Notes under the pieces: model-generated
The model's database searches: none
Told to the model about the DNA's origin: nothing
Seen by the model: only the letters and a program-made list of their open reading frames with translations
Origin: Dysidea avara
Taxonomy: Eukaryota > Porifera > Demospongiae > Dictyoceratida > Dysideidae
Reading direction: 5' to 3'
DNA length: 64,000 nt
Assembly (NCBI RefSeq): GCF_963678975.1
Contig: NC_089273.1
Coordinates: 27,967,073 to 28,031,072, forward strand
Part shown: positions 2,816 through 62,359 of the stretch, in pieces
How the letters are laid out: each line of letters begins with the position of its first letter
Numbering within the stretch: position 1 is the first letter of the stretch
Made by a program: the position numbers and the translations under genes

Positions 2816-3253
2816 TAGGGACCAGCCGATTATGCTCATTATTTTACCTATTATGCTATGCTGCACTGCTCAAAATTTTGCCTATTATTTAATGCCCAAT
2901 ATTTACCTATTATGCTCAAATTATACTAATATTTATACCTCAGTTCTTATGTTTTTCTAGTAAATTTGCACTTTATGGGAAAACAGTAAGTTGCTGAAGC
3001 ATAGACTCTAAATCCCTGCTTGTCAAAATCCATGTCACGGAAAAGATCGATATACTCTAATAGAACAGTCAGCTGTCTAATATTTTCTGACTGTTCTATT
3101 AGAGTATATCAATCTTATTCTGTTATATGTATTGTGATAAGCAAGAATTTATGGTAATGCACAAGTGTTCTACCTATTATGCTAGCATTATGCTCAATGC
3201 TTTCAGGTACCTATTATGCTCATTATTATGCCAGCATAATCGGCGGGTCCCTA
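2816..3253. mobile_element. Non-autonomous hAT-like element
   Basis: 438 bp with inverted ends TAGGGACC.GCCGATTATGCT. It is flanked by an exact 8-bp duplication CACCTGGG (2808-2815 and 3254-3261), and copy 2 has the uninterrupted site near 14862. The 8-bp duplication and TAGGGA ends fit hAT. Inside, 3045-3114 forms a hairpin whose two arms each carry the dispersed CTCTATTAGAG motif. A repeated CTATTATGCTCA phrase lies near both ends. Confidence 0.92.
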
Positions 3254-3529
3254 CACCTGGGGGTTCCCAACTTTGAAGCCACAGGGATTTCTAAGGTCAT
3301 CCTACCAATCCTACTGAAACTATCACACCTCAAGCTAAACTCAAGTTGGAAGCTACTCATAGAACGGGTAATATTGGAGTATAAGTCTACTTGCATGTGG
3401 GTACATATCCTCCCCCAATGTAACTGTATGCACCATTAAAAATAATATTATAATGATTCTGTTATTCTTTTATTTGTACTGCTTTTACGCAGGATCTATA
3501 TACACAAATTTGAATGTAGTCTCCTAAAT

Positions 3530-3740
3530 CTAGAGATGAGCTTTGGGCGGGGACAGACTTTTTTACACCATGTGGCTTTGATACATACCTTATCTGTGTG
3601 CTATTTCCGGCGCATGCGTTTGTGAGTCATCCTGATTATTGTTCACCTTTCTTTCACCTGTATTGCATTGTGGAACCTATTTACCATATTGCATCCACCT
3701 GGTCATCAACTATTAGTTATCAGTAAGTGATATTATTACA
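3530..3740 (+). promoter_or_regulatory. Candidate promoter and first splice donor (also at 15122-15332)
   Basis: Within 200 bp there is a GC box GGGCGGGGAC (3545-3554), an NRF-1-like GGCGCATGCGTT (3609-3620), an AP-1-like TGAGTCAT (3622-3629) and a consensus splice donor GTAAGT (3723-3728). The duplicate copy keeps all of these. This resembles a TATA-less animal promoter with a short non-coding first exon. No downstream coding exon is recognised, so it may be a relic. Confidence 0.3.
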
Positions 3741-4095
3741 TACACATGCAATTATCTCCCAAAATTAACCTTGTTTAACTAGTTCCATTTCTATTTGTAG
3801 ATTGCATTTAATTAACTGTAATTACATACATATTAACAAGAGTGAACTCTTGCCAGTGGCTATTTACTATAAACTAGCTGAACATTCCCACTAGTTCATG
3901 TTGTCCCTCATCTTGTGCAGTTGGCAACATATCATTTCTGCAGTATAGTAATTAAAATGAATAAGTTGTATTTGAACATTATGAAAAACCCAAGCAATAA
4001 TATTTATTGTTATGTAACAAAGTGTTCTACTGTAGTTACATCAGTAACATAATGAAATAGGCTATACGTATATTAAATAATAACACAGCAAAAAA

Positions 4096-4400
4096 TACCA
4101 CATTTCCGGCGGTTATATCGGTACAGGAAATGTCAAGGAAATTTTTTGCTTTACATTTCTGACACATTTCCTGTACTTCTACATATCACTCTTCCATCTA
4201 ATTTCCAGTTGTGCAGGAAATTCCACAACCAAATTTTGTCAAGGAGTTCTTTGTTCACATTTCCGGAACATTTCCTGTACTAGTACATACCACCTGTCCA
4301 GGTGATTTCCAGTTATGCAGAAATTTCAAGGTAATTTGTTTACATTTCTGGTGCATTTTCTGTATTAGTACATATCACCTGTTACGGTAGTTTGCAGTTA
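4096..4400. repeat. Subterminal tandem repeats, left end of the 3.0-kb element
   Basis: Three degenerate units of roughly 100-115 bp repeat the phrase ACATTTC.G..CATTTCCTGTA followed by TACATA.CACCTGT and ATTTCCAGTT.TGCAGGAAA. Similar AGGAAATGT words recur in inverted order at 7005-7100 near the right end. Such subterminal arrays are typical transposase-binding regions; that role is inferred. Confidence 0.75.
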
Positions 4401-5661
4401 GGCATGTAATATAAGTTTGACACATGCCACTTTTACTGTCATTGATTTGAAGTTACTATGGAATTTTAAATTGATTTGGTTACACTTCAGCTCAAATTAC
4501 TGTAGAATTTTGCAATAATTTTATTTTCAGTTTGTACTATGCAGTTTAACTGGTATAGCTAAAGGTAGAATTATTACATGAATATATCTGCATCCACTGA
4601 AAATTCTATCGTACACTTCACAGTTTTTGTTGTCTTGCAGAATATAGAAATTAACCCATGCACCAAACTTTAATCCCATGATCAATATACCTATATATGT
4701 AATAACAAATTATTACAGCTTGCAAAATGCTACATGCTGTTTGATATAATAGGTTTGCCACAATTTGTAATTGCTAGTAATGGTTAAACAGACAAATGGG
4801 TGGCTTTCCAGACACTCTCTATTGAGCCCCATTGGTAACCATGGCACAAAACAAAAAAACAAGCAACCTTTGCATAATTGCGTCACTTTGTATTATGAAT
4901 TACACAGGATCACCATAAAACTAAATAATATTATAGGCTGTTATGTGTCATCCCACAATAAGCAAAAAATCATTCTATCGATGGGCTGGAACAATTTTCT
5001 ATACACAGCGAACTGGGAAACTCATCTCCCATACATTTTCTACAGTACCTGTTGGAGCTTTAGCACACACCTTTCTACTCTTACCAGAGGAGTACCACTA
5101 TAACCAGGTCAACACATACTTATGCATACGAAACCAATGAAGCTACCATCCAGTAGCCACTACTGCTACTGGATCATAGCAGTAGTGGCTAGGATCCGTT
5201 GTGCCACTACAAATGCAATAAAATTTCTGGAATAAATTTATAGAATTCTCACCAGCATACGTATATGTAGCTAACTCAACTCAGATATTTTACTATCAGC
5301 AGCCACAAACTATAGGGTGGTCCATTGAGAGACTATTGACAATGAGTCAATGAAGGGGACTGAACGCCATTAGGAGCTATTATTGGCTACAAGAAGTACA
5401 AGTCTATTTAAGGTATAGTATTCCCACACAAATTATTGTAGTAAAACGACTCTACATAATGTATGAGTTTGACACTACATCAAATGGGGTGGACATTGTG
5501 ATGTGTGCTTTTGCTTTACATCTGATGCATAATTATACTTACATAGAATGCACTTAAAAGATTTTGGTGTAGCTATTTGTCAATTTCCAGTTTGGCTCAG
5601 TGGGAATTGCACATGCTGTCTAGCCAAAGCTGATCATACATGCCAAATTCTGTATCTAATT

Positions 5662-5808
5662 CTGGGGCGGATCCAGGGGGGTTCCAAAGGGCAGCTATTG
5701 TCAGCAGGTAATGACCTTTTCTCTTTTATTTTGGTCTTCAACTTACAGCTAGACTGAAGTTACAATTCAAAGTGGAACTCCCCTTTTAAAAGTCTGGATC
5801 CTCCCCTG
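5662..5808. mobile_element. 147-bp MITE nested in the 3.0-kb element
   Basis: Ends CTGGGGCGGATCCAG and (reverse) CAGGGGAGGATCCAG, flanked by TAATT at 5657-5661 and 5809-5813. Its right part is closely similar to the element at 31094-31340. A 5-bp duplication with CAGGGGCGGATC ends suggests a hAT-like family with a short target site. Confidence 0.8.
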
Positions 5809-6699
5809 TAATTATATAATCAACTCCTTCATTTATTACAGTAGCTACTACGTGTTTCAGCATGTCTCGGGCACTGAACCAGACTGCCAGTTGCTCACAG
5901 CACTAATCACCCGTGGGCACTGAAACCATCTCTGCCTCTGGATCCAGATTGCACTACTTGTCCTGAACAATTAAATTGATCAAACCTGATAAGTGTGAAC
6001 CAAAGTGTAACCAAACAAGACTACCAAGCAGGGCCAGCTCTGGCATAATAGAGTCAGGTGGGCCACCACAGTTGAGGGTATAGCAATTGTAGCATATTTT
6101 CAAGGGGTCTGGGGGCAGGCCCCCCCTTCCACCAGGAAAAATTTTTAAAAGATCATCACTCAAGAGATGCGGCAATCTGAAAGCATTTTAAGCGTAATTT
6201 AGTTGGGTGCTGACAGTTGCATGCTGCTCAATAGAATCTTTGAAGTAAGCTGAGTATACTGAAGGCCGGGTTGAAATGATATTAAGTAGCACACTCTTAC
6301 AGCTATAGCTAAGCTACTAAGTCTAAGTCCTTGCAATTAGGTTAAGGCTGCAGCACATGTTGCTGTCAGACCTTCAGTGCTGGTCACTGTAATGTGCTAA
6401 TAACAATAACGTGCAATTGTATGGCTTCTCGTACGTTAGTCTGTGCACTAGAGTTTAAATTGTATAGTTAACCATAGATTATAGCCCTCTATATAATCTA
6501 TGGTATAGCTACGTATAATATTTAGCTAGCTGTACATAATATGAGAGAAGATACTCTCTTTCTCTAGAGCAAAAGGTTGGGTGGGTCGCAAAGAGCAAGA
6601 ATTTTAACCGATCGATTTTGACCTAATAAGCGCACAACTTAATAGTTTCTTTTCTGACAAAAGTTGAGGCGTTTGTTATGCTGCGCAGGAACATTAAAA

Positions 6700-6989
6700 A
6701 TGGCGACGTTGGCAGGTGCTGGCAGAAAGTTGGAGAGAATCGAAGCGTTCTTCTGTGACATAGAGAAAGAGAAGACTCCGCAAGCAAGTATTGAAATAAA
6801 AAAAATGCCAGTGAAGCGGCCGTCTCGACTCGAGGGGTTCTGGACTCAACACTACTCGCACATCACCCGCCTACCTTAACAGCTATAATTCCATATGCAT
6901 ATGTGAAAAGGAATGGTATTATTGCCACTGCTTCTAATGTGAGGAAACAAACAAGCTCTTCTTACTACAACTCGGTGCAGGAAAACAAG
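6700..6989 (+). pseudogene. Exon-like segment captured in a transposon; gene not recognised
   Basis: A strong start context (AAAAATGGCGACG) opens a frame beginning MATLAGAGRKLERIEAFF that closes at a TAA at 6877. A second frame, open from 6795, continues past that point with VKRNGIIATASNVRKQTSSS and ends at a good splice donor (GTAGGC at 6990). A one-base slip in the A-run at 6797-6805 would join the two, so this may be one frameshifted exon. Base composition and CpG content are higher than in the flanks. It lies wholly inside the 3.0-kb element, which fits capture of a host 5' exon. No family is recognised. Alternatively it is part of the element's own decayed coding region. Confidence 0.35.
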
Positions 6990-7161
6990 GTAGGCATCAT
7001 TAGCAAATTTCCTGTACATTTCCATCTCCCGAATATGTACTGGAAATGTCACCTGTCCTGTATAGATTTCCTGCACATATCCTGCAACAGGAAATGCCAC
7101 TTTTTTTTTCCTGTGTAAGTTATCATGGTTACAGAAAACCCTGAAGAATGCAAGCACTTGT

Positions 7162-10121
7162 ACATCTGACCACACGTATTTCTACAGCCTTGTTACAATT
7201 TCAACAGAATACATACTGCACATATCTGTGTTGTATATGATTTGCAGGAGCTGATAGTTTTGTTCTGCTTCATTATAATTATTTGAACTATCATCAATCG
7301 TCTCCCACTTGCCAAGTATATGCAGTGCACAGGAAGACACATGCAGTATGCAAATCAATGAGTTTTGAATTGAGCCCACTCTTTAAAACTTTTAGAGAGA
7401 TGGATGAAAAGTAATTTTAGCTATTAGCTATTAACTACAGCCGGATATATTTTTGTTATCAAGTTGTGCATATGTGTTTCAAAATACTGAAATTGAAATA
7501 CTCTACATCGTGTAATTGTAATAGAGCTTTAATATCAAAGTTTTCTAAACTACTACCTAGAACTTCAGAGACTAAAGGAGAGGTTAGTTGTGACTAGTTG
7601 TAAATGATAGTTGACTAGTTGTGCATGGTGTTTGGACTAGGCATAAAAGTCAGGCTAAAACAGCAACAGGAAATAAAAGTGTAAGTCAGAATCACATAAT
7701 ATATGCACTATTAATCTTAATTCTCTTTTACAGTCTACTGCAGTGATTTGACTAAAGGTATACCTATACCTTGAGACAGCCGCTATTTTGACTAAAATTG
7801 CCTTATGATCCCACTTGTAGTTGTGGTTTTAATTTTAGTTTCTTTTTTTTACTATTGAAATAAAATCTATAACAACGATATACAGAAACACAGCTTGTAC
7901 TGTATGTAGCTAACTACAGTGTGGACTATATATTTTTAAGTTTGATCCTTCAAAACGTGATTACAAGCAAACATGCTGATTCAGAAGTACCAATGCATGG
8001 ATGGAAGATATAAATGTCTACAGTACCAAATCATACACATGATAATATAAATTTTTAAGTTGCAGTGCTTATGAAGACAATGAAGAGCTGAACCTAGATC
8101 TGTGCAAAGGAGTGTAATAGCCTTTCCAATTGCTGTACCTGGCAACCCATAACTTGGTAAAGTACTAGCTTGAATTTTGGTCATGCCGCATGTACTCTTA
8201 ACCTACTGTTATTTTGGTATAATTTGAAGGTGATACGTAGGTTAAACACTAATGATTAGTCAAACTTGGAAATTTGGAAAGGCTATAAGACCCCTTTTCG
8301 CAGATCCAGTCACATTATTTTATAATTACATGCTGTGCATGAATGCAGTTGTTTCTGAGATTTGTTCACCAAGGATATGAGCGAGGATCTACATGGCTAT
8401 ACCTGAAAATGGTGAGTAGCTAACTTGTTGTAATGCACTATATACTTGTATGGCCAGATTTTGTGATTTTTTCAGTCTACAAAATTACTTTATCCCAAAC
8501 TGCACCTTAATCTGACATGTTTATGGCTATCTGTGAACAAATGCAAAACCCATAATTATATACACTATGGTGAAGTGTCTCAGAGTACCAGCAGAATAAG
8601 CTCTGTTAAACTGGCAAGTTACTATTGTTGATACAATTGACATTTTTCAAGCTTTAAATACACTAACTTGTCACAACTCTGGCTATTTCACTGGCAAACG
8701 GCACTAGTTGAAAGCATGTCCCAGCTAGCCACACAGTCTCCTGTGTGGCTCAATAGCTTCAAAATTAAGCACCACAGACCATCAAAATTTGGTAGAGTTA
8801 TTAAGCATTTCCAAGAGTAAACAATGAACTATTGAGATTACTCTATAATGTAATCTTCTTTAAACTTCAGAGTTAGATAGGCTTGAAATGAAAGTGCATA
8901 AAACTTTGCATGTTGAACTACACCATCACAGGCTATCACAAAAGCTTATTGACATAGATCAAGTTGTACATTTTGGGCTACCCTAAAATAGCCCATTAAG
9001 TGTATAATATGGACTTTAACAAACTTTTTTGTGCATCTCGGACCTTTCTCGGTTCAGCATCACCTTAAAGGTATTGTTGCTATGAGCCTAGATACATGCA
9101 TTTTGTACTAAATCCTACAAACTATGCACCCTAGTACAATTAAGTTGTTAGCAATTTGTAATTGCATGTATAATCACCATACGTACAGTTGTCAAGCAAT
9201 TCTAGTTGTAATCACCATACGCACACCCAGGCTGTGGGAAAATTGCCCACAGACTGTCAATGCAGACTTGTTGCATTAAATATTTAGCCTATAAATAAAA
9301 ATAATATATTAATGAATGTAAGACCACGAAAAGTTATTTATATGTTTCTAGTTTCCTTACTGGTCATTTTTTGCTAATTTTAAATCTGTTTGAAAGTTTT
9401 ATGCCTTGTAAACACTCTTTTCTTATAAAGATGCAATAATATTATTAAGTTTGTTCTCCCTATAATTCCATGTACTACTAGGTAGTAGTAAAAAAAATCC
9501 TGGTCACCTGGTCAATTTTGAGGAATTGGTAGGATCAGACACATTCTAATTAACTTTAAATTTGCACAGCTTAAAATTGGCCTATATAGAAGATTTGGCC
9601 GTTAAGCCATACAGCAACAGCCACAACATACAGTGAAAAACAAAGTACACAGTGTGTCTAAAAGTATTTCTGGCAGACTTGATGGTAATACTTTATCATT
9701 TCACTGCTTAAACTTGTCATGAGATAATAAGCTAAGTATTTAATTTAATCCAAAGATATCATGATCATATTACATAGTACTACAGACTATAGTACAGATA
9801 TTAATACGATAAAACAAAACGTAGATAAACTTGACAGCACGCACTAGTATGCAATCAACCCATACACAGGAAAGCAGTGACAACAAAATGATGAACTCCA
9901 GCCTCCAGGTACAATTCCTAGTAGTAAAGTCCCAATGACATGAGGATGACGATGTACCTGAAGTGGAACCATTCTTTATGACATGTTGTTATCTGTCAGC
10001 ACAGTTCATCAAGTGTAAACAGTGGAATAGCAATAACTAACAAACTTTCAATATACTCATATCAATTTTCTTTCATTGATATAACACACACATACATAGT
10101 AAAACTTTTTCATTGCATAAA
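7162..10121. other. Gene-free AT-rich stretch
   Basis: No credible coding frame or complete transposon is visible. The bases at 8291-8325 match one end of the TGTGAC MITE family (CCCCTTTTCGCAGATCCAGT) without a left partner. A phrase TAATCACCATACG is duplicated at 9172 and 9211. Confidence 0.6.
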
Positions 10122-16405: not shown

Positions 16406-16787
16406 TAGGCCTGTGTAGAATATGCCGGCAGAATAAAAAGCATAATAGGCTGGGGTGCTATGCCAGTATAATGTTAGAATATTAGGTGGATGTTTCAAAC
16501 TATGGAGCTTAATTCCATGAAACTAGATTGATACTCCTAATAGAGTGGTCAGTGGAAACTGCAAACTACAATAGAGCACTCAAACATGCATTGTACATAG
16601 CTCCTATAATCTATACTCTCTAATATAACAGTCACTTTGTAGTGAAATACTCTAATTGAGCATTCGCTGATTGGGAGCATATGCAAGCATAATGGGAACA
16701 CTGAAGAACATGATAGGTGAAATTGTTGGAAAATTCTTGAAAGCATTTCGGGAAAAATTTTGAGTGGCATATTTGACCCAGGTCTAT
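16406..16787. mobile_element. Non-autonomous hAT-like element, TAGGCCTG ends
   Basis: Ends TAGGCCTGTGTAGAATATGCC-like and (reverse) TAGACCTGGGTCAAATATGCC-like. Flanks TCCCTGAT/TCCCTGGC match at 6 of 8 bases. The uninterrupted site is visible in the paralogous unit near 20188. Inside are three versions of the dispersed CTCTAATAGAG motif. A second copy of this element, in opposite orientation and holding a nested transposon, lies at 41299-42325. Confidence 0.8.
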
Positions 16788-22820: not shown

Positions 22821-22857
22821 TCGGCAGAGTGACAGTAGTCTCAGTGGCTGAGTAGCA

Positions 22858-24687
22858 ATGAGTGGAGAAGATATTCCTTATGGTCCTGAGCAAAAGCCAT
22901 GGAAAGAGACAGTAGCTCAAGTGGCCATGTTTGAAGGCAAACCAGTGGTCAGCCCTCCTTCTAGAGATCCCAAAGAAGTATACAACTACCCTGGCCAAGA
23001 GAAGGGAGTTACTCCTAGGAAGTACGAGGTACCTTCTGTTGGACTAAATGCTGACCAAGCTCGACAGGCACAAGATGAAACCTTTGATACAGCTACTGTG
23101 CAAACACATAACTTCCTTGGTTACCAGGTATGCTTAAAGAACGACTACAGCACTGTCGCAAAATACCTTCATACCATGCCGAACAACATTGGTGACCCCT
23201 TTTACCCTGGAGCCTTTGTCTTAAACACAAAATGGATGGAGCGCAATGTTCTAGACTACTATGCATCATTGTGGAATGCCAAGTGGCCTCATGATCCTAA
23301 TGATCCTGAAACCTACTGGGGTTATGTAACAACAATGGGCTCAAGTGAATGCAATCTGTATGCCATGTGGAATGCACGTGACTACCTAAAGGGAAAGATG
23401 ATGATGACAGACACTACAAAGAAAAGCCCCACCGTTACTTATGTTCAAGCAAGAGCACCAGCTGACAACCCTAACATGTTCACACCAATATCTTTCTATT
23501 CAGAAGATACTCACTACTCGATTATAAAGGCCATGAGTGTGTTGGAGATCAAAAACTTCTTTGAGGTTGGAAATGAGTTGTATCCTAATGATAACCCATT
23601 GAACCCTGGGAAAGAGTGGCCAGTTGAAGTGCCTTCACTCGATGGAGATAGTGGACCAGGATGCATTGACATTGATAAACTCTGCAAGCTTGTTGAATTC
23701 TTTGCTTCAAAGGGATATCCTTGTGTGGTTGCTTTCAACTATGGGACTACATTCAAGGGGGCTTACGATGATGTGAAAACAGGAGGTGAAAGGCTAATGA
23801 AGATATTTGAAACCTATGGCTTGTTGGAGAGGCAGATTGTTATCAAAGATCCAGACAACCCAGATAAGCCCATAGTAGTCACACGAAAGGGTTACTGGAT
23901 TCATGTTGATGGAGCTTTAGGTGCATCATATATGCCATTTCTACAAATGGCTTTCAACCTTAAGAAGACAAATATAAAGCCTGCTCCGATATTTGATTTT
24001 CGGCTACCATTTGTTTGCTCCATTAACACAAGTGGTCACAAATGGCCTGGTGCCCCTTGGCCTCTTGGAATTTACATGACCAAGACAGGTCTTCAGCTTT
24101 TGCCACCCTCAGATCCAGCCTATATCGGTTCTCCTGACACCACATTTGCGGGTTCTCGAAATGGTCTTTCTGCACTGGTCTGGTGGACATACATCAGTGA
24201 GCACAACTACGATTCACAAGTGAAGGCGGTCGTTGGGTGTCTAGTGATGGCTGAATATGCTCGTAAGAAGCTAGAAGATCTTCAGAAGACACTCAATGAA
24301 GATATATGGCTTTCCTATACTCCACTGACCCTGTCGCTCAGATTCAAGAAGCCCAACGATGAAATTGTTTACAAGTACACACTGGCTGTAGAGGTGTTAA
24401 ACTACAACGGCAAACCTCGTACTTACATACATGCTTACATAATGCGCCATGTCACAAAAGAGCTCATTGATAATTTGGTTGCAGATCTTCATGCACCAGG
24501 TGCTTTTGCTGGGGATAACGAGGCTAAGGCCCAAAGGAGATGGCTTCGTGCACTCAACAAAAGTGCGGCTAATGATGCAACAACAAACTTCCGTGAAGGG
24601 CTGATACTTGGGAAAGGTAACAAGGGTGTGGAGAAAGGAACAAAGAAGTTGCTTCATTATCCAGTTGAAGGAAGAGGATTTCTGTAG
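22858..24687 (+). CDS. PLP-dependent group II decarboxylase, histidine-decarboxylase-like
   Basis: A 609-residue protein in one uninterrupted exon. It has the group II pyridoxal-phosphate decarboxylase fold signature. NNIGDPF (109-115) and YWGYVTTMGSSECNLY (153-168) form the substrate/phosphate region. His219 (EDTHYS) should stack on the cofactor. GTTFKGAYDD (296-305) follows. Asp351 (HVDGAL) pairs with the pyridine nitrogen, Lys395 in SGHKWPG is the Schiff-base lysine, and GSRNGL (432-437) follows. These motifs resemble bacterial PLP histidine decarboxylases, not animal HDC/DOPA decarboxylase (NPSKW/NPHKW type). It is longer than the roughly 380-residue bacterial enzymes, with extra N- and C-terminal regions. 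No signal peptide is evident, so it is probably cytosolic. The expected reaction is amino-acid decarboxylation to an amine; histidine to histamine is the leading guess, but the substrate is unproven. Decayed copies follow at 26925-35345. ATG at 22858 has a purine at -3 and an upstream stop. Confidence 0.95.
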   Translation: MSGEDIPYGPEQKPWKETVAQVAMFEGKPVVSPPSRDPKEVYNYPGQEKGVTPRKYEVPSVGLNADQARQAQDETFDTATVQTHNFLGYQVCLKNDYSTVAKYLHTMPNNIGDPFYPGAFVLNTKWMERNVLDYYASLWNAKWPHDPNDPETYWGYVTTMGSSECNLYAMWNARDYLKGKMMMTDTTKKSPTVTYVQARAPADNPNMFTPISFYSEDTHYSIIKAMSVLEIKNFFEVGNELYPNDNPLNPGKEWPVEVPSLDGDSGPGCIDIDKLCKLVEFFASKGYPCVVAFNYGTTFKGAYDDVKTGGERLMKIFETYGLLERQIVIKDPDNPDKPIVVTRKGYWIHVDGALGASYMPFLQMAFNLKKTNIKPAPIFDFRLPFVCSINTSGHKWPGAPWPLGIYMTKTGLQLLPPSDPAYIGSPDTTFAGSRNGLSALVWWTYISEHNYDSQVKAVVGCLVMAEYARKKLEDLQKTLNEDIWLSYTPLTLSLRFKKPNDEIVYKYTLAVEVLNYNGKPRTYIHAYIMRHVTKELIDNLVADLHAPGAFAGDNEAKAQRRWLRALNKSAANDATTNFREGLILGKGNKGVEKGTKKLLHYPVEGRGFL

Positions 24688-28921: not shown

Positions 28922-30514
28922 AGCATGGAAGGTATGCTTGAATTACAGTAGCACATAGCAAGCAGCATTTTTGCAATTGACAAAGCTATGGTGGTTTTTA
29001 TATAATCATATCAAATAGGCCAAAAATATATCACATCACTGAAGTGATAATTGTAGAAACAGGTGTTGGGTTGCCATGTGAACTAAACCACTAATTGGTC
29101 CATTACATAGTGTGTAGTAGTAGACTCTCTATATGATGTGAAGCTAGTATTTGTAGTGATCCATAACGACAGCCTTACTTTGATGTTTGTGCTTGCTATA
29201 ACCACTCCAAGCAAACATCCTAGTAACATAGTGTCAAAACTACAGGCACTCATGCAATGCCTACGTATACAACATACGCAGTAGTGGCTTTAGTCTATAA
29301 CAGGAAAAGTAGGGAGGGAAGGTTCTTTTGAGGTTCTAAAATAGCTCTTGGTGTGGGAGGATTTAACAATCCAAAAGGAGTGACTAACTACAGGTCTACA
29401 GCCTATATATTATACAGTCTAGCTAGCTATGATATGTACCTACGTGACAGCAGTAAGTGAAAACCACTCCTCAACATTAATGACTTAAAAAAAAAACCTG
29501 CAGTGATTGATGTTGCCAGACAATCACTTTAAGTGAAGCCATAATGTAGTCAATATGCCTCAAGGGGATTCGAGTAGTCTCTGGGATGAAAATAATTTTC
29601 TTTCCGTAATAAAAGACTGTATGACTAATTGTAAATGTATAAATTTCGAGATATAAAGCAAAGATCACTTAAGGATACCTGTTATATGAAGCATAGAGCA
29701 AACCATCACTGCATGAAGAGGTTTTCACAAACAGCCAAGCAACCGCAAAATCCATGAATTTTATATAACCTCGAAAATTTGTTTGTTAATAGCTCCAACA
29801 AGGCTATACAGTGGAACCTGTGTATACCGGTCATGGGGGTAACTGTGAGTTTATTGAAATGGTAACAGATTATTGGTGATTTGTTGGTTTTGTATTGTAA
29901 CTCAGGACATTCACGTCCCATCCAAAATATTTTCAAGTAATGCCTAAAACACTGAAACTAGAGATTATACCAACATATGGAGAGACCTTCTTTGCAGTAC
30001 ATTTTAGTAGTGTTGTAACTGCTTCATGCTTGTTTATTGGTCATGACAATCAGTTGCCAAATTGTTCAGATGAATTGTGTTGATTATTTCTGTATGTAAC
30101 GTTAAGCATTCCACTGATCAAAGGTGTAAAGTTTTGCATTTTAGTGGCATAGCATGGATCATTGTATTATCACAGAATTTTAGGACTAGAGATTGTAAAC
30201 ACACACACGCGCACGCACGCACACATGTATACTGTGTGTATCAAAAAAATTTAAATTCACCAGTTATGATTTACCATTCAGTGATCACAGAGCTGTAGTC
30301 AGACAAAGACATATGATGAAGCCATATTATAGTCAGTATGTCACAAAGGAGATAAGTGGTCACAGGGATAAAAACAAATTGCTTTATGTAAAAAACAGAC
30401 ATCATGATATACTCCTATTGGGTTATGACACTAACAGATCATGCTGTGTAGTGGTGGTAATTTGTGTACACAGCATGTGCGATCTATATACCTATTGATT
30501 TCAAGAACATTTTG

Positions 30515-31078: not shown

Positions 31079-31093
31079 CATAGGTGAAAATTT

Positions 31094-31340
31094 CAGGGTC
31101 GGATACAGACTTTTAAAAAGGGGGGTTCCACTTTGGAATTGCAACTTCAGCTGCCCCTCACCATACTCACCATAGATGCCCTCACCAACTACATTTCCTT
31201 GTTTATACTGTATACATAACTTGCTACACTACTCCTCAAAAGACTACTGTGACTGCTCTATTAGAGTATCTTGAGTAAGAGAGGCTCTTTCAAAAGGGGG
31301 GTTCCATGGAACCCTTTGACCCCCCCTGGATCTGCCCCTG
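31094..31340. mobile_element. 247-bp hAT-like MITE, 5-bp target duplication
   Basis: Ends CAGGGTCGGATACAGAC and (reverse) CAGGGGCAGATCCAG, flanked by AATTT (31089-31093, 31341-31345). Unit C lacks the insertion near 35341. It carries a dispersed-motif copy (31250-31275) and a GGGGGGTTCCA phrase near both ends. Confidence 0.88.
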
Positions 31341-32251: not shown

Positions 32252-32472
<221 letters not shown>

Positions 32473-33198: not shown

Positions 33199-33503
33199 CA
33201 GTGGCGGATTTAGGGGGGTTTCAAGGTTTCCACGGAAACCCCCTTTGAAATATGATTGCGTAACAATTAAATGTTTTGATTATTGCGGTGTGCGCCTCGA
33301 TCGAGATACTCTAATAGAGCAGTCACAGTAGCCATTAAAGCAGTGCGTAGCAAGTTATTTAATAGGCTGTGACCCTTTTTTTTTTTGGTCTCACCTTACC
33401 AAACCAAACAATGTAGTGCAAACTTTTGCATATCTCATGTCAGTGTATATCTCCACCTTCTTAAACTGGAAACCCCCTTTGTAAATTCCTAGATCCGCCA
33501 CTG
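33199..33503. mobile_element. 305-bp hAT-like MITE, 5-bp target duplication
   Basis: Ends CAGTGGCGGATTTAGGGGGG and (reverse) CAGTGGCGGATCTAGGAATT, flanked by GTAAA (33194-33198, 33504-33508). Unit A has the uninterrupted site ATTGTAAATGTATAAATTTC near 29628. A dispersed-motif copy lies at 33300-33325. The GGAAACCCCCTTTG phrase is inverted near the two ends. Confidence 0.9.
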
Positions 33504-35651: not shown

Positions 35652-36301
35652 CATACAACATGCATGTCCTGCACCTACTGTATACATGGGTCTACACATT
35701 GGCTGACATTACACAGGACTGGCCCTGAGGGTAGGCAGAGTAGACAGCTGCCTAGCACCCCAAGGCTAGGGGGCCCTAAAGGCTATAAAGAAAGGTATTA
35801 CCCCAGTGCTCAAAATTTAAACATACAATTACAGTAGATAGTGCATACTTTTAAGAAGAAATCATACAATATAAATTGTTGCTTGAGATACATATTGCCA
35901 ATATGCATAATATGAATCAATTGATATTCAAGTAATGAGCAATAAGTTATACTGGAATATATTTGGTTGTTGAATATGATATTCATTGCACTGTGCACTT
36001 GAATGCAGCCATACACATTAGGAATTCATCTTAATGGCATTAGCTTACCACCTCTCTTCCCACTACACAATGGGAGGCTAGGTAACAAATCCCATGACTG
36101 TAATGATTTTTTTAAAGTCACACAATGGAGGCCAGGTCCCCAGTGGCGTTGATTTGCCTTCAGTTTCTTAATTGTGATGACGGATAATTAAGTAGTCACT
36201 TTGTATACATGTAAGTTGAATGCATTCACTAATTTCAGAGGCACACTGAAATAATTTTATTAATTGTCTTTACTATGCTCTACATGGGCTAAATGTTAGT
36301 T

Positions 36302-36638
<337 letters not shown>

Positions 36639-36723
36639 ATGGAAGATACACCTGTAAAGCATCAAATAGTACACAGCTGCACTTTTTACAACTTACAAAG
36701 GTATTGTGGTTTGCATACAGAAG

Positions 36724-37603
36724 CAGTGGCGTAGCCAAACCCGGGCAAGCCAGGGCATTGCCCGGGCATCAGACTTCTTTGCCCCACCATCAGCTCCTAG
36801 AGTAATTATAAAGGCGTGGGCTGGATAGCTTGAGATTTTGTTAAAGGTTAAAGTTACTTAACTAGTCACTGCACAACTTATACAACACTCACCGTGCCAT
36901 TTTCGCCGATGGTTTCCTTCTTTTTGGCTAAACAGAGATGGGTTATCCGAGGGATTTTCCCTACGAGTAACTTGATTGTGCACAAATAGAGGAGGCAATA
37001 AATAGAAGCAAGATCACGTGATTACAAAAAACTGCGCAGCATTGTGGGAAGGAGTGAAGGAGAAAGAATTAGTTTCACTATAGTGGGCTGGACGGTTTAC
37101 ATTTGGATTAAGTGATCACGGTAGCTATTGGTGTGGTCAAAACTCGGGAGGCAAAGCAGTCTAGAGGTATTTGTGAAATTAGCACCCATCTATCCGTGTG
37201 GATACTGCTCAGTTCAAACGGTATGGATTACTTGTTCAGTCAGCGATTCTTTTCTTTTTGTTTCCACTTTTCTAGGCTAACAACTGTAGTGGCAGAGCAT
37301 AGTCATCACGTGATAGAGCGCCTCGTGCTTTAATTCAAGAATCTTTGTAGTCTGGTATTAAGACACGTGTAGCTAGATGTATGTAATATGTTAGAAGGCC
37401 AATAGCTAGCTAGCTAGGCATTCGCTTCTATTAGGTTGATATTAGTCATCTTGCATACAGTAGTGTAGGATGATACATAATGCATTTTTAAAATGTTATA
37501 TTGATGTCCATATGAAGATGGGCATGTGTACGTGTGTTGCGGCATGGGAAATGGCTTGCCCACCCATTGCCCAGGCATGGCAAAAAGTCTGGCTACGCCA
37601 CTG
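36724..37603. mobile_element. 880-bp hAT-like element, 8-bp target duplication
   Basis: Ends CAGTGGCGTAGCCA and TGGCTACGCCACTG are exact complements. TACAGAAG is duplicated at 36716-36723 and 37604-37611, and unit B shows the empty site near 32555. The subterminal GGGCATTGCCCGGGCAT is mirrored by CATTGCCCAGGCATGG. No transposase frame. The interior contains two ATCACGTGAT palindromes (37013-37022, 37305-37314) and TGCGCAGCATTGTGGGAA (37033-37050), like a captured promoter. Confidence 0.95.
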
Positions 37604-41298: not shown

Positions 41299-42325
41299 TA
41301 GGCCTGAGTCAAAACATGTTCAAAATTTTGTCCAAAAATTATGCTCATCAGTGGTCCTCCTAGATTAGCAACATTCCTTACAATTATCTTTTAATCAGTG
41401 AATGCTCTCTTAGAGTATTTCATTACAAAGTGACTGTTCTATTAGAGAGTATCGATCTAAGCAGCTACCATATGGAGGGAAACTGGTGGACGGAAACTTT
41501 GGTGGACCGAAATATTGGCGAATAAAACAAAAACATCAAATTGTAGCAAAGCACATGCCATTGTTTTATTAATTACCAATCGTTATACCTGGCATGGTGC
41601 CACATTTGGCGTCTAATCGAACGTCTAATATTCAACACCATAATATCATGCAACAATCACAGAAGGTCAGACTATAGTAGATATTCATGGTAGAACTCAT
41701 GTTGTGTCTGGACTCCGGATACCCCATGTACTAGCTCAATTAGTCCATGGCACTGGTAGATCGATGATTCGGTAGCCCTTGGCTGAGAGTTATTTGAGGG
41801 ACATTTAATAAGACAATATGGCACCTTATTGTGAATACACAATGGCCCACAAACACCCCCATAGCGTTTAATCAAAATTTCTCAACACTAGTTCATTTTG
41901 TGGCTACTATACATCAAAACTTGAAGTGATTGGCCATACACATGGAATTGAGTTGGGCCAGTTTGGCTCAGAGTATGAAACCAAAACCTTGGACTGCTTA
42001 ATTGCATCAGCAGCAGATACACATACATAAAATTACATATAGTAAGCAAGCCGGGTGTTTTCCACAAGAGTAAAATATTTGGATGCAGAAAATTTCGCTA
42101 ATTCATGGTCATCGTCTAATTTGCCAAATTTTGCCAGCACCAGAGTTTCCCTTCATATGGTATGTGCACATTTGAGTGCTTTACTGCAGTTCACATTTTC
42201 AACTGACTGCTCTATTAGGGAATAACGATAGGAATTAAGCTCTATAGTTTGAAATATCCACCAGCACTACGCTGGTAAGTACTCTATATGGTATTTATGA
42301 TACTAGCATATTTGACGCAGGCCTA
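41299..42325 (-). mobile_element. hAT-like element, TAGGCCTG ends, carrying a nested transposon
   Basis: Ends TAGGCCTGAGTCAAAA and (reverse) TAGGCCTGCGTCAAATATGC. Flanks TACATTAG/CACATTAG match at 7 of 8 bases. It is the reverse-oriented relative of 16406-16787 and contains a 0.7-kb insertion at 41468-42160. Dispersed-motif copies lie at 41430-41457 and 42204-42225. Confidence 0.85.
41468..42160. mobile_element. TA-flanked element with CCATATGGAGGGAAACT ends, nested in a hAT
   Basis: Left CCATATGGAGGGAAACTGGT and (reverse right) CCATATGAAGGGAAACTCTG. TA flanks both sides. In the related element at 16406-16787 the matching spot (GCATTGTACATAGC, about 16590-16605) is uninterrupted, which supports insertion at TA. 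No coding frame. Confidence 0.88.
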
Positions 42326-48121: not shown

Positions 48122-48499
48122 ATGTTGGCCTCTTCTCTATGGGTTACTTGTGACAAACCATGCAGGATGTTGGATCATTTCAAGTTGCTTGATTGCATTA
48201 TATGTGATGGTAAGGATCCCATATGGAGGAGCACTAATTTAGCTCAGTTGTTTATAGGTACACATTCACAAATGTGTCTTAGAAGGTGGTTGATCTCCGA
48301 TAGGAATTCTCTACTCTCTCATGATCTAGTCTCACCCCCAGTCTGGGGCAAGACTACTCCCGATCTACATGAGATTTACATTGAGACATTTAAGTCATAC
48401 TTAATTACAGTGGAACCTCAGTTATCTGGACCCTACCTACCTAGATCCTCGGTTAACCGAACTACAGGAATATCTGGCTTAACTGCTCTATTAGAGTAG
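48122..48499 (+). other. Longest unassigned open frame, ending in a pogo-like terminus
   Basis: 125 codons with no recognisable domain; in AT-rich sequence of this length one such frame can arise by chance. From 48416 the DNA reads TACAGTGGAACCTCAGTTAT, typical of pogo/Tigger-type transposon ends, with an inner CGGTTAACCGA dyad. So the last third at least is transposon-derived. Two dispersed-motif copies follow at 48481-48518. Confidence 0.3.
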
Positions 48500-50934
48500 T
48501 GACTGTTCTATTAGGGTGGTTTAATAGCGTTGATAGCTATTTTAAGGTACAGTTTCTGAGATACGTATGGACTTTTTAGACTTATGGGAGCACCCCTGGT
48601 TCCAAGAGCTTCAGACAATTGTATGCATTAGCATAACACCCCTACAATGAATGGAGAGAGAATGGGACCTTGTGCATGCAGAAATGAAGGAGAAATAATC
48701 ACTATATTATTTCAGAGCAATAGGTCTAGAGATATGTGCTGTCAGTGGACACTGAGACAGTTCAACTGTCCACCAACAGCACATATGTCCAGCTGTTTAG
48801 GTGACTATGGCAATCAAGTGATGGTTTGGACCATATAAAGCTAGTTGGGTAAAATGACTGCCAGCCACTTAATGAGCAGCACTGTTTCTAATTTCATAAC
48901 ATTTTGCTGAGTGGATGAGTTCCACACGTTAACTTGCAATGCGTAATTATTGTTCTAGTATTGGGCACATAAAACTCTATTCTTTGCAGCGGAAAAACAA
49001 ACGATGTTCTCATAATAAATGCACTAAAGAGTTATGGAGATCCATCAAAATTATGCGAAAAGATCAAGTCTCTATTAATACCATACAAGTGAATGCAGAA
49101 TCCTACTGTGACAGTTTTTCTAAACCTAACATCCTCAACAACTGCTACTCTTCAGGTTTTTAAATATGACCACTTCTCATCCTAACATAGACATAGCTAC
49201 AGTGAGCCATTTCCAGTTATTATTCTAGCGTTTCTCCTTTGGGAAGGAATCAGGAATTTGGGGGTGACGAGATGAACTAGCTATAGCTATAGGTACACTT
49301 GTTCTATGTAAATAAATTGAAACAGTTTCCAAATCCACAACAACCATTAGTTTGGCATTTGTTGCACACCATTTGGTTGAGAAATAACTGGTAATCAACA
49401 AGGCGAGATCTGAGAAATAGAAAATAACTGAGAAGGCAACTGAGAAACTGTAACTAAGAAATAACTAGAAAACAACTGAGAATTATGATATAATTGATAA
49501 ATTATCAAGAAAATAAGTGAGAAATGATAATTAAGTAGGAAATATGTAAGAAACTCCTGGAACTAGCCTCCATATGATGCTGCCAAAACTCTGTAGTATC
49601 AAATCTCGCAGTAACTTAGAATCAAAGAAATCTGGTAACTAATTCTTCACTCCATAATAATTATTGCTACAATTGTTTGGTGCAGGAGTCTCAGAGAGCA
49701 GGATGTACGTTTGGAAAACTATTAGGGTATAGTATCTACTGTCAAAGTCACATGTACACTTAAATATGATTTCTCCCTTCAATGATCCCTTTATTCCAGT
49801 TTGAATCAACCTTATTCTGTATATAGTCTGAATGACATTAGCTATGTAGCTATTCATAGTGCTTTAAAAGTAACTCAACGTCCATTATATGGCCTCAAAC
49901 AGTACAATATTTTGATTTGCTGTATACCATAACTAAACGTAATGGCACCAATGAGTTGAGTTTCACATGATCATTGTGCACAAAATGCATCTTTTGTGGC
50001 TTTCTATATGTGAAAGAGGAGTATATTACATGTTCTAGAGTCTTGCAGCAGACAAAATATAGTCACTAAATAATATCAGGGATAATTACTGTCCGTACTG
50101 TGTAGTTGCCAGTCATAGAATGTCATACACAATAATCACCTCTTAATTTGATATTAGTCTGGTGGCTCTATTAGAGTATTTTGTGACCAGTTTGTGAAAA
50201 TCAATAATATTATGGTATGCTGGGTGGACAGGAGTAAGTAGTCACTACTGAAAACTTGTAGTTATATAACTTGTAGTTATTCCCCATGCCATGCCATGGA
50301 CTGCAAGTTGTAAGATGGTATTGAGTCAGGAAGATTAGAATGTATGGAATATTGATTAAAAACATGGCTTCTACATGTTTGCATAAGCTATGCATGCCAG
50401 TTTTGCTGAAAAAAGGTGCTCATTGCTTGCTCTTGGTTCTATGGGTGTGCAGCAATACTACTACTCTCAGGCTATAATGTAGTAGTGTTGCTCCAATGTC
50501 CTGTTGCTCCTTGAGCTGAGAGAGTTCACTGACTGGCATGGCGAGGAATACAGAAAATTAATTGTTTGTCATAATCATAGTTTTTCTTATGTGTACTGGA
50601 AATGGAAAAAAAATTATCGATCTAGAAAATGAGGCATGGTGGAGCTGTGTAAATGTTTGCTAGTTGGTGGATAGAGTTTTCAGGCTACATTTCATATGTA
50701 ACTAACATAAGACAGTTTAGTGAATACCTATTAAGTGTAAGAAGTATATATGGAGTTTTGTGAAGGTTAATTTTATACCCACATTCTATATATACGTATA
50801 ATACATAATTGCGTGTGTTTTTTTTCTGCAAAAGATTCATAATGTTTGTTTTGCAAAACCAAGCTACCAATAAAAAGTTTCTTTGTTGGTTGTAGAGAAA
50901 TTATCTGTGGATCCACAAGCCTTGATCAAATTTG
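48500..50934. other. Gene-free AT-rich stretch
   Basis: 49390-49560 is built of degenerate AACTGAGAAATAACTGAGAA-like words, and a similar patch lies at 51240-51370. A dispersed-motif copy is at 50161-50180. No gene recognised. Confidence 0.45.
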
Positions 50935-53488: not shown

Positions 53489-53896
53489 TTAGGCCATCAT
53501 TATTAGCTATATTGCTTGTTTCCCATCACCCATTAGAGCAAAACTTGAACTTATGCGCCGGGGCGGGGTGGGAGATGATTATTCGTATTCACTCGACTCT
53601 TGTTAGTATATTTTAGTTTCTGACTGCTCTATTAGAGTAGCTATCTCAATCTTGAAGGCCGCCAGGATCCACGCTGTTGAACAAGAGTGGAGGGACTTCC
53701 ACCCTTCTGCTATGTGTATGGGCACAGCTAATCAGTGGCTAATGCATTTACCTTAATACTAGTTACTCTGTGCCTCCTTCTAGCATGAAATAGTGCATTC
53801 ACATGATTTATAATCAAATAATTAAAAGTCGGTGAGTGTACCTAAAATTGATGCGGGTGGTGACGGGAAACAAGGAATTTAATAATGATGGCCTTA
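53489..53896. mobile_element. About 405-bp inverted-repeat element, TTAGGCCATCATTATTA ends
   Basis: Left TTAGGCCATCATTATTA then TGCTTGTTTCCCATCACC; reverse right TAAGGCCATCATTATTAAAT then TTGTTTCCCGTCACC. A dispersed-motif copy is inside at 53620-53651. Target duplication not clear. Confidence 0.8.
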
Positions 53897-57060: not shown

Positions 57061-57526
57061 CAGGGGCGAATCCAGAACCTGGCAATGGGAGGGGCACAAA
57101 CAGGCTAAGTTGTAGGTGGTTGGGGAGACTCATATTCTCTTGTTAGTTGCTGCATTTTTGAAGCAGCAAACAATCACCTCTTAGTAGTGTCTCACTGTTG
57201 ATTTTTGCCATTTTGGCCTTTGCAGATGGTTATGAAGTCTTAAAAGCTGTTAAAAGGCTCTGAATATCTTACACAACAGCAACACGATAATTATCATTAG
57301 AAGTGCTTAGTATGCATGAAGGTGCTGGGTGACAATTTTACAGCTAGTTTCAGTGACTGGTATGATTTGGTTTCAAGCGAATTTATAATAAATGCAAGTA
57401 AAATGCATGTGAGCATACTATGAGTTTGATAAACTTATCTTGGCCTGACATAAAGTAGCTACTGTATTTTATTCAGAACTCCTCCACAAGTGGGGCCCAA
57501 ATGCCCCATCCTGGATCCACCATTGC
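57061..57526. mobile_element. hAT-like MITE, CAGGGGCGAATCCAG end
   Basis: Left CAGGGGCGAATCCAG and (reverse right) CAATGGTGGATCCAG. CAGTCCATG and CAGTCAATT flank the ends as an imperfect duplication. Decayed. Confidence 0.55.
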
Positions 57527-58462: not shown

Positions 58463-58842
58463 TAACTCAAGTATGTGGTAGTAGCAATAACATTGGTATG
58501 AACTTAATACACTGTGGTTGCGCATGCAACATAGGCAATGATATAGGGTTTCCAAATGAACACGTTAATGTTAACAGATTGGATAACATATTTACACATA
58601 GATAGATACTAAGTCAGAAGATAAATGGCAGAGTGAACTTACAAGAAGCAAATTTGCTTCAAAGAAGATGTTAACATTGCAATATGCATATAAATTATTA
58701 CATGGTCATGGACATGACAAACCTAGACTTAGTATGAAAGGATATGCAGTTTTTATCCCCAAGAGTGAACATATTTCCTGTAGATCAGTGAAAAAATAAT
58801 AAGACTAAGAATAGTGTAATATTATTATTAAAAATTAAAACA

Positions 58843-59100
58843 TGGGAATAGAGATAGCTGAAAAAATAAAGAAACAAGAGTCAAACTAGCCAGCATGTTA
58901 AACACAGAGATCTCTATTTGGAGTCAATGGATATGGTGGAAACTAAGGAAAAAACAGTAGTTCTCCATGAATAAGGGGCAGATAAGTACTGAGAATGTTT
59001 CTGTATAAATGTTTATTTGAGTCCAAATAGAGATCTCTGGGTATTTAACATGCTGGCCAGTGACTTTTGTTCTTTACATTTTCAGCAAACTCTATTCCCA
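58843..59100. mobile_element. 258-bp MITE with about 85-bp inverted repeats
   Basis: Left TGGGAATAGAGATAGCTGAA through GCCAGCATGTTAAACA and AGAGATCTCTATTTGGA is mirrored at the right end in TCCAAATAGAGATCTCT, TTTAACATGCTGGCC and CTCTATTCCCA. Short form of the 55104-56213 family. Confidence 0.9.
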
Positions 59101-59650
59101 TTTTAGATTTTTAAAATTATTTTTTTGTACTATAGCTTGTTTACTTTTATAAATCCATTTATGGAGCTAACAAATAAGGGATGCTTGATATGTCACAGTA
59201 CTAAACATGTATATCAAGTTAGTCATCATGCCGTTAAGTAGTCAGCTAATATTGTCAGAGTTATCAAACACTAGTCTGATTAATCATGAACCATGGTAGT
59301 GTTATGTGATCACAATAAGTCAGGTACACAGCAACATTGTTGCTCTGGTGTGGACTTAATATACTGTGGTTAAATGTATAGGATTTTCAATTGAAATGTT
59401 AACATTAATAGATTGGATACTTATTAACACATAATAACATGTTGGTTACCCTTGCAGAGACTTAGTCAGAAGATCATTGGCAAAGTGAACCTACAAGAAG
59501 CAGATTTGCTTGCAAGTGTTGCAATATGCATTTAAAAATAGATCATGGGACGTATAGAAGGAAATTAAAGTTATGTAGTTTTTATCTCCAAAATGTACCC
59601 AAATTTTTCTCTAGCCCAGTGGAAAAAATAATAATAAGATGATGATGAAC

Positions 59651-62359
59651 AAAATGGTATATTTCAGTTTTTTAAAAAGTATTTTAGTGGGTCCTTTTTA
59701 GTTCATATTTTCCAGTTCTTAACTTCTAAGGCTTCATTTGTGGTTCCTATAAGGTGGTGTTTAGGTGTGTGTATTCTATTAGGATTTTGGCAAAAAAAAC
59801 ACAGGCCATCTCTGTTATGAACCACTACTGTGGTTCATGATACTGTGACTGGTTTATTAAAGTTAGTGACTGCTCTATTAGAGTATCTCAATCTGAATGT
59901 CTTGTGTCTCTGCAAATCAATGCAAAAATGTTTTTAACTGCTTGAATACACTTGACTGATTTCTGGAAACCTCAGAAACTCCCTGGAGCCACCTCTGATA
60001 AAGGATAAAATTTTTGCAAACTATAGTTACTGTAGTTGCCGGTATTAATATTCATTTCTTGGCCTCAACAAATATTAGCTCCTTTAGTCATCAGTTACTT
60101 TTAGTTTCATGGACACATCTTTTTTGTACAGCAATCTGTTTTTTGTTTTGCATGGGGACATTGTTGTATCATAAATATAGACGTGTGACACATAATCTAT
60201 TGGGATGCACTCTAAAACAACAAGATAGCCAAAATTTAGACATTAAAGTTAAATGGTCTTTATAAAGATGAGGCCTTTGTTAGAAAGTGGTCTTTACAAA
60301 GAGGTGAATACCAGGTGATTTATCTAAGTATTGTTCTATTATTCATATTTCACAGATACATATGTTCATGGCAAATTCATGATAAGATATAGCATGTAAG
60401 TTACTAGTATATGAAATATAAGTGAATATTTTATATCATATTCAACCCCAGATTCCTAGCAGTATAACGTTACTCAAGGAAACCATATAGTCATAAATAG
60501 CTGATACACATTATCTATGCTGTAGTGTACACCTTGCCATGTCTTTGAAGACAAAACAGTAAAACATGGTATTGAATATGAGACAAATTTAATGGTTTAC
60601 GTCACGCATTGATACTATTCAACATCTTCTACAGAGCTTTCCAGTGATAGCTAACCAGGTGCGCATGCAGTCATTTAGTTTGTATTGCTACCGGCTTTAG
60701 GTATTTGTAAGAGTCCTCCTGACATCTGTGATAATTATGTTGAAGCTATGTGATTCTAGAGTAGCTCAGTGTGGCAATTACAGATCTTGGCATCATGTTG
60801 ATGAACGTACAGCTTCTGGAATATATGCCAATGATCATGTTGTCCAAACCTGCATTATTAGTATAGTATAGTATCTATGGTTGTTATGTCTTAAATATTA
60901 GTTAATCCTCGCATTGAGTGTAATATGGAAAATGTAGCACAAGAGAGACAAGCACAGTACAAGGCAAAGCCAAGTATTGTACATTGTATTTGACACACCT
61001 GAGTGCTATATTTACCATAGTGCACAAGTGTAAACGCTGCTTTAACTGGTTTAATGTATGAATCCAAAGTTGCAAACAAAAAGAAGTTATAACTGTTAAT
61101 ACAGTTTATCACAACCCAGAATGCCATGATGGAAGTTAGAAAACTAGTGCCTATACTTGTGATTAGCAGAAGCTTAATTTGTAGCCATTAATGCTGACCA
61201 CGATTTGTGATCCACAAGATCCAGAATTCGCTTAGTAGCAGGATAGGAGGATGAGGAGAACAACAGAGGAAGGCTAGCTACGGTGTACGTAAATAATGGA
61301 CAGTTTGTACAGCTATCCAATCATTGTTCACAAGTGTCGCCATCAATGTGACAAAGTTGAAGGAGTCAATATGAAGAGGCAACTAGTCTAACCAAGAATT
61401 ACAATAATAGACAGTTTAGTGAACAATTTAAGATTGAATGGTATAATTATTGTAGTGGAATTACAAACATTTGTGTGGGTAGCCATTAATTTGTGGTTAA
61501 TTGCTATAATGGTAATTTTGTTGGCAGCTTTGTTAATGTGGATGATCGTGGATGTTCCGGTGTTTCCGTGGGTTGTGTATTTGGTTGCGTCACATTCACA
61601 CAAAGTGTGCTTTATTGACAAAGAGAAAAGCATTTGCCCCTGGGCATAATCAGTAAACACTGCCTGCCCAGTAATAATAATAAATAAATAAATAAATAGA
61701 GCAGACTTTGATGGAAAATATGGCACACTTTAACACAGTATGGAATGTACTGTAAGTACACTTCCGCTTTTAACTTAGATGGTATACAATAAACAATGTC
61801 AATGTTACAACAACAGTGCGGGAAGCATTTTATAGAACAATTCATTGATATCAAGACACACGATAGCGTGCCGTGCGGCCCAAGAAGCCGGCGAGCCACA
61901 CCATGAGTATATTGACAGGAAGAAAGTAAACGTAATTTTCACACCTTTGTATCTCGGTTATACCTTATCCGATTAGAGCCAAATTTGCTGCAGAGTTGCC
62001 CGCCAGCTAGGGGAGTCCACATTGGTGGGGTCTATTCTACGGAACGGAATCATGAACTACACTATGGAACGGAACGCTTTCTCAAAATGAAGCCTGCGGC
62101 TTACCATTGCTGAAACTTCCCTTACAAGTTATCGACAAACCTCCAGCAGGTGATTAAACAAAGCCCCAAGAAAGATAGAAACAATTAAAGGACTGATTGT
62201 GGGTTTTAGTCGGTTGTCATTAGTAATGAAGTACTTATTGTGGGATTAGCTGTCTCAGTGATGTTTATCTAAGAGGGCAGTTAATGGATTGCTTATTTTC
62301 TCTAAAGCTTACAGTATGTACCCTGTTTACGCTTAGTGTGACTATAGACTACAGTCTAG
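59651..62359. other. Mostly gene-free stretch
   Basis: A dispersed-motif copy is at 59866-59894. 59975-60000 (CCCTGGAGCCACCTCTG) looks like one hAT-type end without a partner. 61419-61649 and its antisense are both open but hydrophobic or repetitive and not supported as genes. 61930-62170 carries a repeat phrase that recurs at the window's right edge. Confidence 0.45.
62080..62170 (+). repeat. Direct repeat with 63905-64000
   Basis: CATTGCTGAAACT, TTACAAGTTATC, ACCTCCAGC and AAACA.A.CCCC occur in the same order in both places, about 1.8 kb apart. The second copy runs off the window. Confidence 0.75.

Follow-up and report, generated by a model that had tools for sequence, protein, structure and literature searches.

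A 64,000-bp stretch of the Dysidea avara genome (contig NC_089273.1, positions 27,967,073 to 28,031,072; G000:C2:27967073-28031072 in an assembly of 550.8 Mb and 108 contigs), here called the window, contains many copies of a short motif first noticed in an initial annotation as an 11-bp dyad. The dyad sits within a longer asymmetric repeated unit of ~28 bp, which is directional (TGACTGCTCTATTAGAGTATCTCGATCT). Many families of non-autonomous DNA transposons (miniature inverted-repeat transposable elements, MITEs), of several types, carry it as an internal module.

Units and their host elements in the window

A weight-matrix scan identified 19 units in the window after removal of overlaps. Each of the 14 ranges (15 copies) reported in the initial annotation holds a version of the motif, degenerate at 16523-16552 and 16609-16634, and four further units were found at 15993 (weak), 16566, 41399 and 59846. 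Nine of the 11 clusters (3053/3088, 16535-16666, 31250, 33307, 41399/41431, 42204, 48480/48500, 53621 and 59846/59867) lie within repeats, according to their ends and target duplications or to genome searches (run for clusters other than 19985) in which 40 of 1,415 to 2,815 first-look candidates were scored. The suggestion that copies also lie outside elements was therefore mostly not borne out. The clusters and their hosts are as follows.

2816..3253, hAT-type MITE, ends TAGGGACC.. and ..GGGTCCCTA, 8-bp duplication CACCTGGG; head-to-head units at 3053-3071 (-) and 3088-3106 (+)
16406..16786, high-copy repeat, ends not defined; units near 16535, 16566, 16618, 16650 (-); query 157-537 covered by most of the 40 matches scored, at 75-87% identity
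19985..20003 (-), single unit from the motif scan
31094..31340, hAT-type MITE, ends CAGGGTCGGATACA.. and ..TGGATCTGCCCCTG (11/14 complementary), 5-bp duplication AATTT; unit at 31250-31268 (+)
33199..33503, hAT-type MITE, ends CAGTGGCGGAT, 5-bp duplication GTAAA, relatives at 82-91%; unit at 33307-33325 (-)
41299..42325, hAT-type element, ends TAGGCCTGAGTCAA, duplication TACATTAG/CACATTAG (7/8), with ~0.7 kb that is absent from relatives; units at 41399, 41431 and 42204 (+)
48408..48621, pogo-like MITE, left end CAGTGGAACCTC after TA, right end from relatives only (73-78% identity); units at 48480-48498 and 48500-48518 (+)
50160..50178 (+), single unit; among the 40 matches listed for the surrounding 50098-50389 there is a single relative, at 72% and 0.19 Mb away
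53492..53893, PIF/Harbinger-like MITE, ends GGCCATCATTAT, 3-bp duplication TTA; unit at 53621-53639 (+)
59840..59997, hAT-like MITE remnant, right end CCACCTCTG (CCACCCCTG in relatives); units at 59846 and 59867 (+)

The hAT-like remnant abuts a repeat at 59519-59843 that ends in a hairpin followed by TGAT (..TGAACCACTACTGTGGTTCATGAT). A second repeat family, F5, ends in the same way at loci L016, L021 and L033 (..ACACACTACCGTGTGTCTTGAT), and both are perhaps Helitron-like.

Copy number, boundaries and arrangement of the unit

The density of the motif is beyond chance, as first claimed. When TGACTGCTCTATTAGAGTA was searched on both strands with up to four mismatches, 18 matches were found in the window (14 with up to three), a few of them being the same dyad read on the opposite strand, and 20 dinucleotide shuffles of the window gave 0-1 matches (mean 0.15). 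A further 23 matches were found at the same threshold in 59.4 kb taken from fixed coordinates on six other contigs, indicating that the window is not special in motif density, with none at one of these six loci (L031).

The genome has 30,260 exact copies of the 19-mer (15,220 and 15,040 on the two strands) and none of the reversed pattern. A degenerate 17-mer (TGANTGYTNTATTARRG) gave 95,187 matches (47,742 and 47,445), compared with 17 (12 and 5) for its reversed control. Elsewhere, the exact motif was found once in bacterial and archaeal genomes totalling 257 Gb and not at all in 2.9 million viral contigs, which is about the chance expectation for a 19-mer. No description of the motif was found in the literature on sponge genomes, shared short motifs or MITEs, or through parts of its sequence, in a search that left most subscription papers outside.

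The edges of the unit were located in matches from the window and other sampled loci, with a single representative kept for each flank family (69 copies). Similarity starts abruptly at TGACTG, with only a weak preference for G at position -1 upstream. Positions 0 to 17 are strongly conserved, and the tail (TATCTCGATC) is weaker, fading near position 26 (~27 bp).

A weight-matrix scan of 330.7 kb returned 188 matches, or 183 without overlaps, against a single match in the reversed sequence. Neighbouring units less than 80 bp apart are direct in 69 cases, head-to-head in three and tail-to-tail in none, and the commonest direct spacings are 17 (16 cases), 21 (12), 27 (8), 25 (7), 28 (6) and 32 (6). 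The 111 clusters comprise 52 with one unit, 48 with two, nine with three and two with four, though these proportions are not unbiased because the sample was mostly picked near exact copies on one contig and families were counted repeatedly. Genome-wide, perfect direct pairs were found at 3,337 places (1,640 and 1,697 by strand) and head-to-head pairs at eight, using a somewhat stricter pattern for the latter. The 100 direct pairs listed have 37 distinct spacers that fall into 20 near-identical groups, so the pairs belong to many families rather than one. Spacing 17 is absent from these 100, and the upstream unit of spacing-17 pairs is a variant.

Ends and target duplications of the carriers

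Elements were examined by script for their ends and duplications, and both ends were matched for 27 that bear the motif. Exact 8-bp duplications flank ten, two have duplications at 7/8, eight have exact 5-bp duplications, one an exact 4-bp duplication and one TA, and five have none. The claim that the carriers have different ends is upheld. They are listed by class, with L numbers denoting sampled loci.

Exact 8-bp: L005, L017:3697-4026, L019, L025, L014, L002, L018, L022:4201-4636, L009 and window 2816-3253
8-bp at 7/8: L023 and L026:1381-1679
Exact 5-bp: L020:504-821, L024:2892-3186, L034:7421-8332, L034:3298-3827, L017:5529-6294, L024:3646-4414, window 31094-31340 and window 33199-33503
Exact 4-bp: L024:6195-6510
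TA, pogo-like, both ends: L020:6241-6475
No duplication: L012, L022:9436-9768, L026:4114-4411, L020:4314-5115 and L011 (right end doubtful)

Two other candidate elements (L010:4092-5736 and window 29809-31133) were set aside as chance end pairings.

The 8-bp or 5-bp duplications and CAGGG/TAGGG-type ends by which hAT elements are recognised were found among 26 motif-bearing elements of these end types, the carriers listed above without the pogo-like one; 5-bp duplications occur in some hAT lineages. Within the 8-bp class the ends are of several kinds (CAGGGCCGCCC, CAGGGGCGGTGGAG, TAGGCACCGGCC and TAGGGACCCGCC), to which the window element at 41299-42325 adds TAGGCCTGAGTCAA (7/8). A TA duplication with CAGT-type inverted ends, as in pogo/Tc1-mariner elements, was found at L020:6241-6475, the one copy with both ends. 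The names hAT, PIF/Harbinger and pogo, assigned from ends and duplications, are putative.

The PIF/Harbinger-like family was found by a search with 751 bp around the motif, and eight copies picked from the best motif-spanning matches were compared with the window copy in an alignment. Identical 3-bp flanks (TTA, TAA and one ATA) and inverted ends are present in seven of the eight copies whose right end is readable, and the unit is at the same place in all nine aligned copies. As only motif-spanning matches were taken, this does not show that every copy of the family has the unit. Five of the 39 other matches start at query positions 355-382, beside the motif (372-390), and might be chimeric.

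The F5 family is a further long repeat with two or more units (L016, L018, L020, L021, L029, L030 and L033). A diverged tandem repeat with units like CTACAGGGTGATTTGTTTGTAGCTGAACTCT adjoins the motif upstream in this family (L016, L018, L020 and L021).

None of the loci examined yielded an autonomous element bearing the motif. The candidate L029:6690-8775 (-) includes a hAT-like transposase frame of ~605 aa with Pfam matches below the curated cut-offs, which is free of the motif inside as far as it was read. It was rejected as a carrier because, by eye, an end of the TAGGCCTG type, downstream of the frame, separates it from a nearby motif cluster.

Two transposon insertions involving units were also seen. 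At L022 a pogo-type transposon (~1934-8390, with HTH_psq and DDE_1 pieces) lies at a TA beside a unit and, by eye, splits a hAT-type MITE; at L041 a PIF/Harbinger-like MITE copy was inserted at ATA, the dyad centre of another unit.

Relationship between units in different carriers

Consensus units were compared for nine groups (one to nine copies each); eight agree in all of the first 19 bases, and the ninth has a single difference. Most groups have TATCTCGATCT or TATATCGATCT as the tail, the PIF/Harbinger-like type has TATCTTGATCT, and the pogo-like group lacks a tail, a second unit following directly after the first. The duplications of 8, 5, 3 and 2 bp and the unlike ends indicate that the carriers cannot be copies of one element, and a word of this length is not repeatedly made by point mutation, so the unit was presumably copied from element to element. 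The initial annotation had named a single ancestral element behind all carriers as the outcome that would overturn it, and common descent of that kind is not supported. However, immediately before the unit several hAT-type families have a longer interior in common, despite their unlike ends and their 8-bp or 5-bp duplications; it contains GACC(A)nGGTC, a T/A-rich stretch and CTTGCTACACTG. Carriers of the other types have only the 28-bp unit in common. In pairs of clusters, the left flank alone is shared in 24 cases, the right alone in ten (some of which merely differ in unit number) and both flanks in 23.

Divergence of the unit

Motif columns diverge less from the consensus of their family than other non-CpG columns do (48/1,326 versus 1,036/12,179), and the value is lower in all seven families, although five of these were assembled from motif matches, which favours intact units. 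In the two families found by flank searches the counts are 9/289 in the unit and 279/3,455 elsewhere (p = 0.0012 if sites are independent), their copies also having been picked from the best matches. In 41 of 47 pairwise comparisons, which are not independent of each other, the core is better conserved than the average non-CpG window (0.966 versus 0.886), and on average 0.316 of windows are as good as the core or better. These comparisons offer moderate evidence that something keeps the unit intact.

Other features

An intronless open frame of 611 codons at 22852-24687 (+) in the window encodes a relative of an L-methionine decarboxylase of known structure (phmmer E 5.7e-138 to 7cif; Pfam Pyridoxal_deC) and might represent a gene of bacterial type. 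Long CA/GT simple repeats are present at 32251-32583 and 36250-36805. In the assembly, 21 matches to COX1 lie in chromosome-sized contigs (G000:C8:25954946-25956247 and others). The best has internal stops, a decayed copy was read with TGA as Trp, and the matches are probably nuclear copies of mitochondrial DNA.

Comparison with known systems

The CENP-B box is a ~17-bp site present in otherwise unrelated repeats and bound by a transposase-derived protein. It differs from the unit in sequence and in its location in satellites, as the unit is in dispersed MITEs. Bacterial repetitive extragenic palindromic (REP) sequences are, like the unit, very short, highly repeated and partly palindromic, and REPINs consist of inverted pairs that are mobilised together. 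Inverted pairs were not the rule here, where neighbours are nearly all direct and lie inside larger transposons.

In Brassicaceae, about 85% of E2F motifs belong to transposons, chiefly MITEs of the hAT, PIF/Harbinger and MULE kinds together with Helitrons, according to a review (PMC12595863), which covers the description of this amplification by Henaff et al. 2014. This case is the closest precedent and probably represents the same kind of phenomenon. As far as that source describes it, a single site is carried by MITEs of several superfamilies in one lineage, and the same was found here, given duplications of 8, 5, 3 and 2 bp and unlike ends. Most copies of the E2F site are in transposons; for the unit, nine of 11 clusters in the window lie in repeats. 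However, the E2F site is described there as 10 bp with a known binder, whereas the unit is ~28 bp, directional and often doubled head-to-tail; no MULE carrier was seen here and a Helitron carrier was not established.

In Caenorhabditis, a study (PMC9757741) reports that the MITEs CERP2 and CELE2 carry m1m2 motif pairs that are bound by the THAP-domain protein HIM-17 and serve as germ-line promoters. Here too a motif pair of set orientation is MITE-borne, and m1m2 is bound by a host protein. On the same account m1m2 occurs in two related families with the motifs in the inverted repeats, whereas the unit is interior and found in many families with unlike ends.

Possible role of the unit and alternative explanations

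It is tentatively proposed that the motif is a candidate binding site that was spread by exchange of internal modules and kept as an aid to amplification; we infer the protein, the advantage and the exchange. The unit would be bound by a sequence-specific host DNA-binding protein, perhaps of transposase origin, with the site often comprising at least two like-oriented units at spacings of 17-33 bp. Binding may help the element to amplify, for example if it makes chromatin accessible or recruits the element to replication or repair. The module could pass between families in chimeric elements built by gap repair or template switching, after which the copies keeping the module would be those that expand. 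Of the three explanations offered in the initial annotation (a protein-binding site, a very small mobile module and a preferred insertion landmark), the binding site is the best supported, if indirectly, because the unit is shared across duplication classes, has sharp edges, diverges less than its surroundings and lacks RNA covariation.

Several observations weigh against this proposal. To the selection of copies noted with the divergence figures must be added that, in the PIF/Harbinger-like family, an AT-rich block equals the unit in conservation and, of 274 overlapping windows, 21 diverge no more than the unit does, some of these overlapping it. Conservation of the core could also arise from conversion or subfamily structure, and in the hAT-type families with the longer shared interior the motif could simply have been inherited with it. 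Elements without the motif also exist. Four are of the same end types (L014:2041-2506, L015:7650-7940, and window 5662-5808 and 57061-57525), and three more were found at window 36724-37603, L026:208-605 and L026:6911-7324. In stretches that were not chosen for the motif, five elements have the unit and two do not.

The main rival is neutral shuffling of modules, in which the interior of an old MITE was copied behind new ends by gap repair and nested insertion and has no function, with identity across families due to recent exchange or conversion. It has a lesser but real chance of being correct. In its favour, several unlike-ended hAT-type families, with 8-bp or 5-bp duplications, share the interior before the motif while their right arms differ, and cluster pairs that share one flank (24 left, 10 right) are about as common as those that share both (23). 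However, the non-hAT types share the 28 bp alone, and in seven of seven families the unit is less diverged than the rest. A very small module that inserts itself, like bacterial REP or REPIN elements, would account for the sharp edges, the unrelated flanks and the tens of thousands of copies, but is unlikely. No consistent duplication was found at the edges of 61 dereplicated clusters when 2, 3, 4, 5, 6 and 8 bp were compared with permutations, with only scattered 2-bp excesses (e.g. 9 versus 3.5 at one offset). Eight of nine gapped paralogue pairs from an all-against-all BLAST were viewed, and none contrasts a copy bearing a whole unit with one that has none: seven differ in the number of units, and one retains the core without the tail and adjacent bases. 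The constant position of the unit in the nine chosen PIF/Harbinger-like copies is a further point against such a module.

A site needed for transposition itself, bound by a transposase or an architectural protein of the transposition complex, is quite improbable. Internal regions of mPing are described as enhancing or repressing transposition in the review cited above (PMC12595863), but the 8-, 5-, 3- and 2-bp duplications of the carriers imply different transposases, making one transposase common to all carriers unlikely, and the distance from the unit to the left end varies, for example from 56 to 531 bases. An RNA-level feature (a hairpin, or a processing or targeting signal) would fit the strong head-to-tail orientation and yet is very improbable. 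The dyad shows no covariation or compensatory change in 79 dereplicated copies, and the unit folds no better than shuffles (z -0.85, 0.67 and 0.07), so the unit is read as a double-stranded DNA word rather than an RNA stem. No Rfam family was found in the window at gathering scores. TATA-like words have no positional enrichment upstream of 66 dereplicated clusters, and a TATA-like core promoter at a fixed distance, which the hAT-type families had suggested, was dropped on the same result. A preferred insertion landmark is the least probable of these explanations, despite the insertions into units at L022 and L041. The unit is inside the carriers and not at their junctions. The junction CTCTAWTAGGCCATCATTAT, in which a PIF/Harbinger-like MITE end falls at the dyad centre, occurs only 2 + 1 times genome-wide although the MITE and the motif are both common, and the landmark is largely refuted for this family.

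Implications

The success of MITEs is usually credited to the transposase and the ends. That a long, near-identical internal site is present in four target-duplication classes suggests that the host provides something else that all of them need, and the double unit is a ready bait for finding the protein. It is possible, though doubtful, that unrelated DNA transposon superfamilies with their own transposases now depend on one 28-bp host-factor site for amplification. If so, a single nuclear protein would govern much of the MITE expansion in this lineage, and the ~95,000 near copies would be a genome-wide reservoir of binding sites for it. If the site is neutral, the data would instead document an unusually free exchange of interiors between unrelated transposons.

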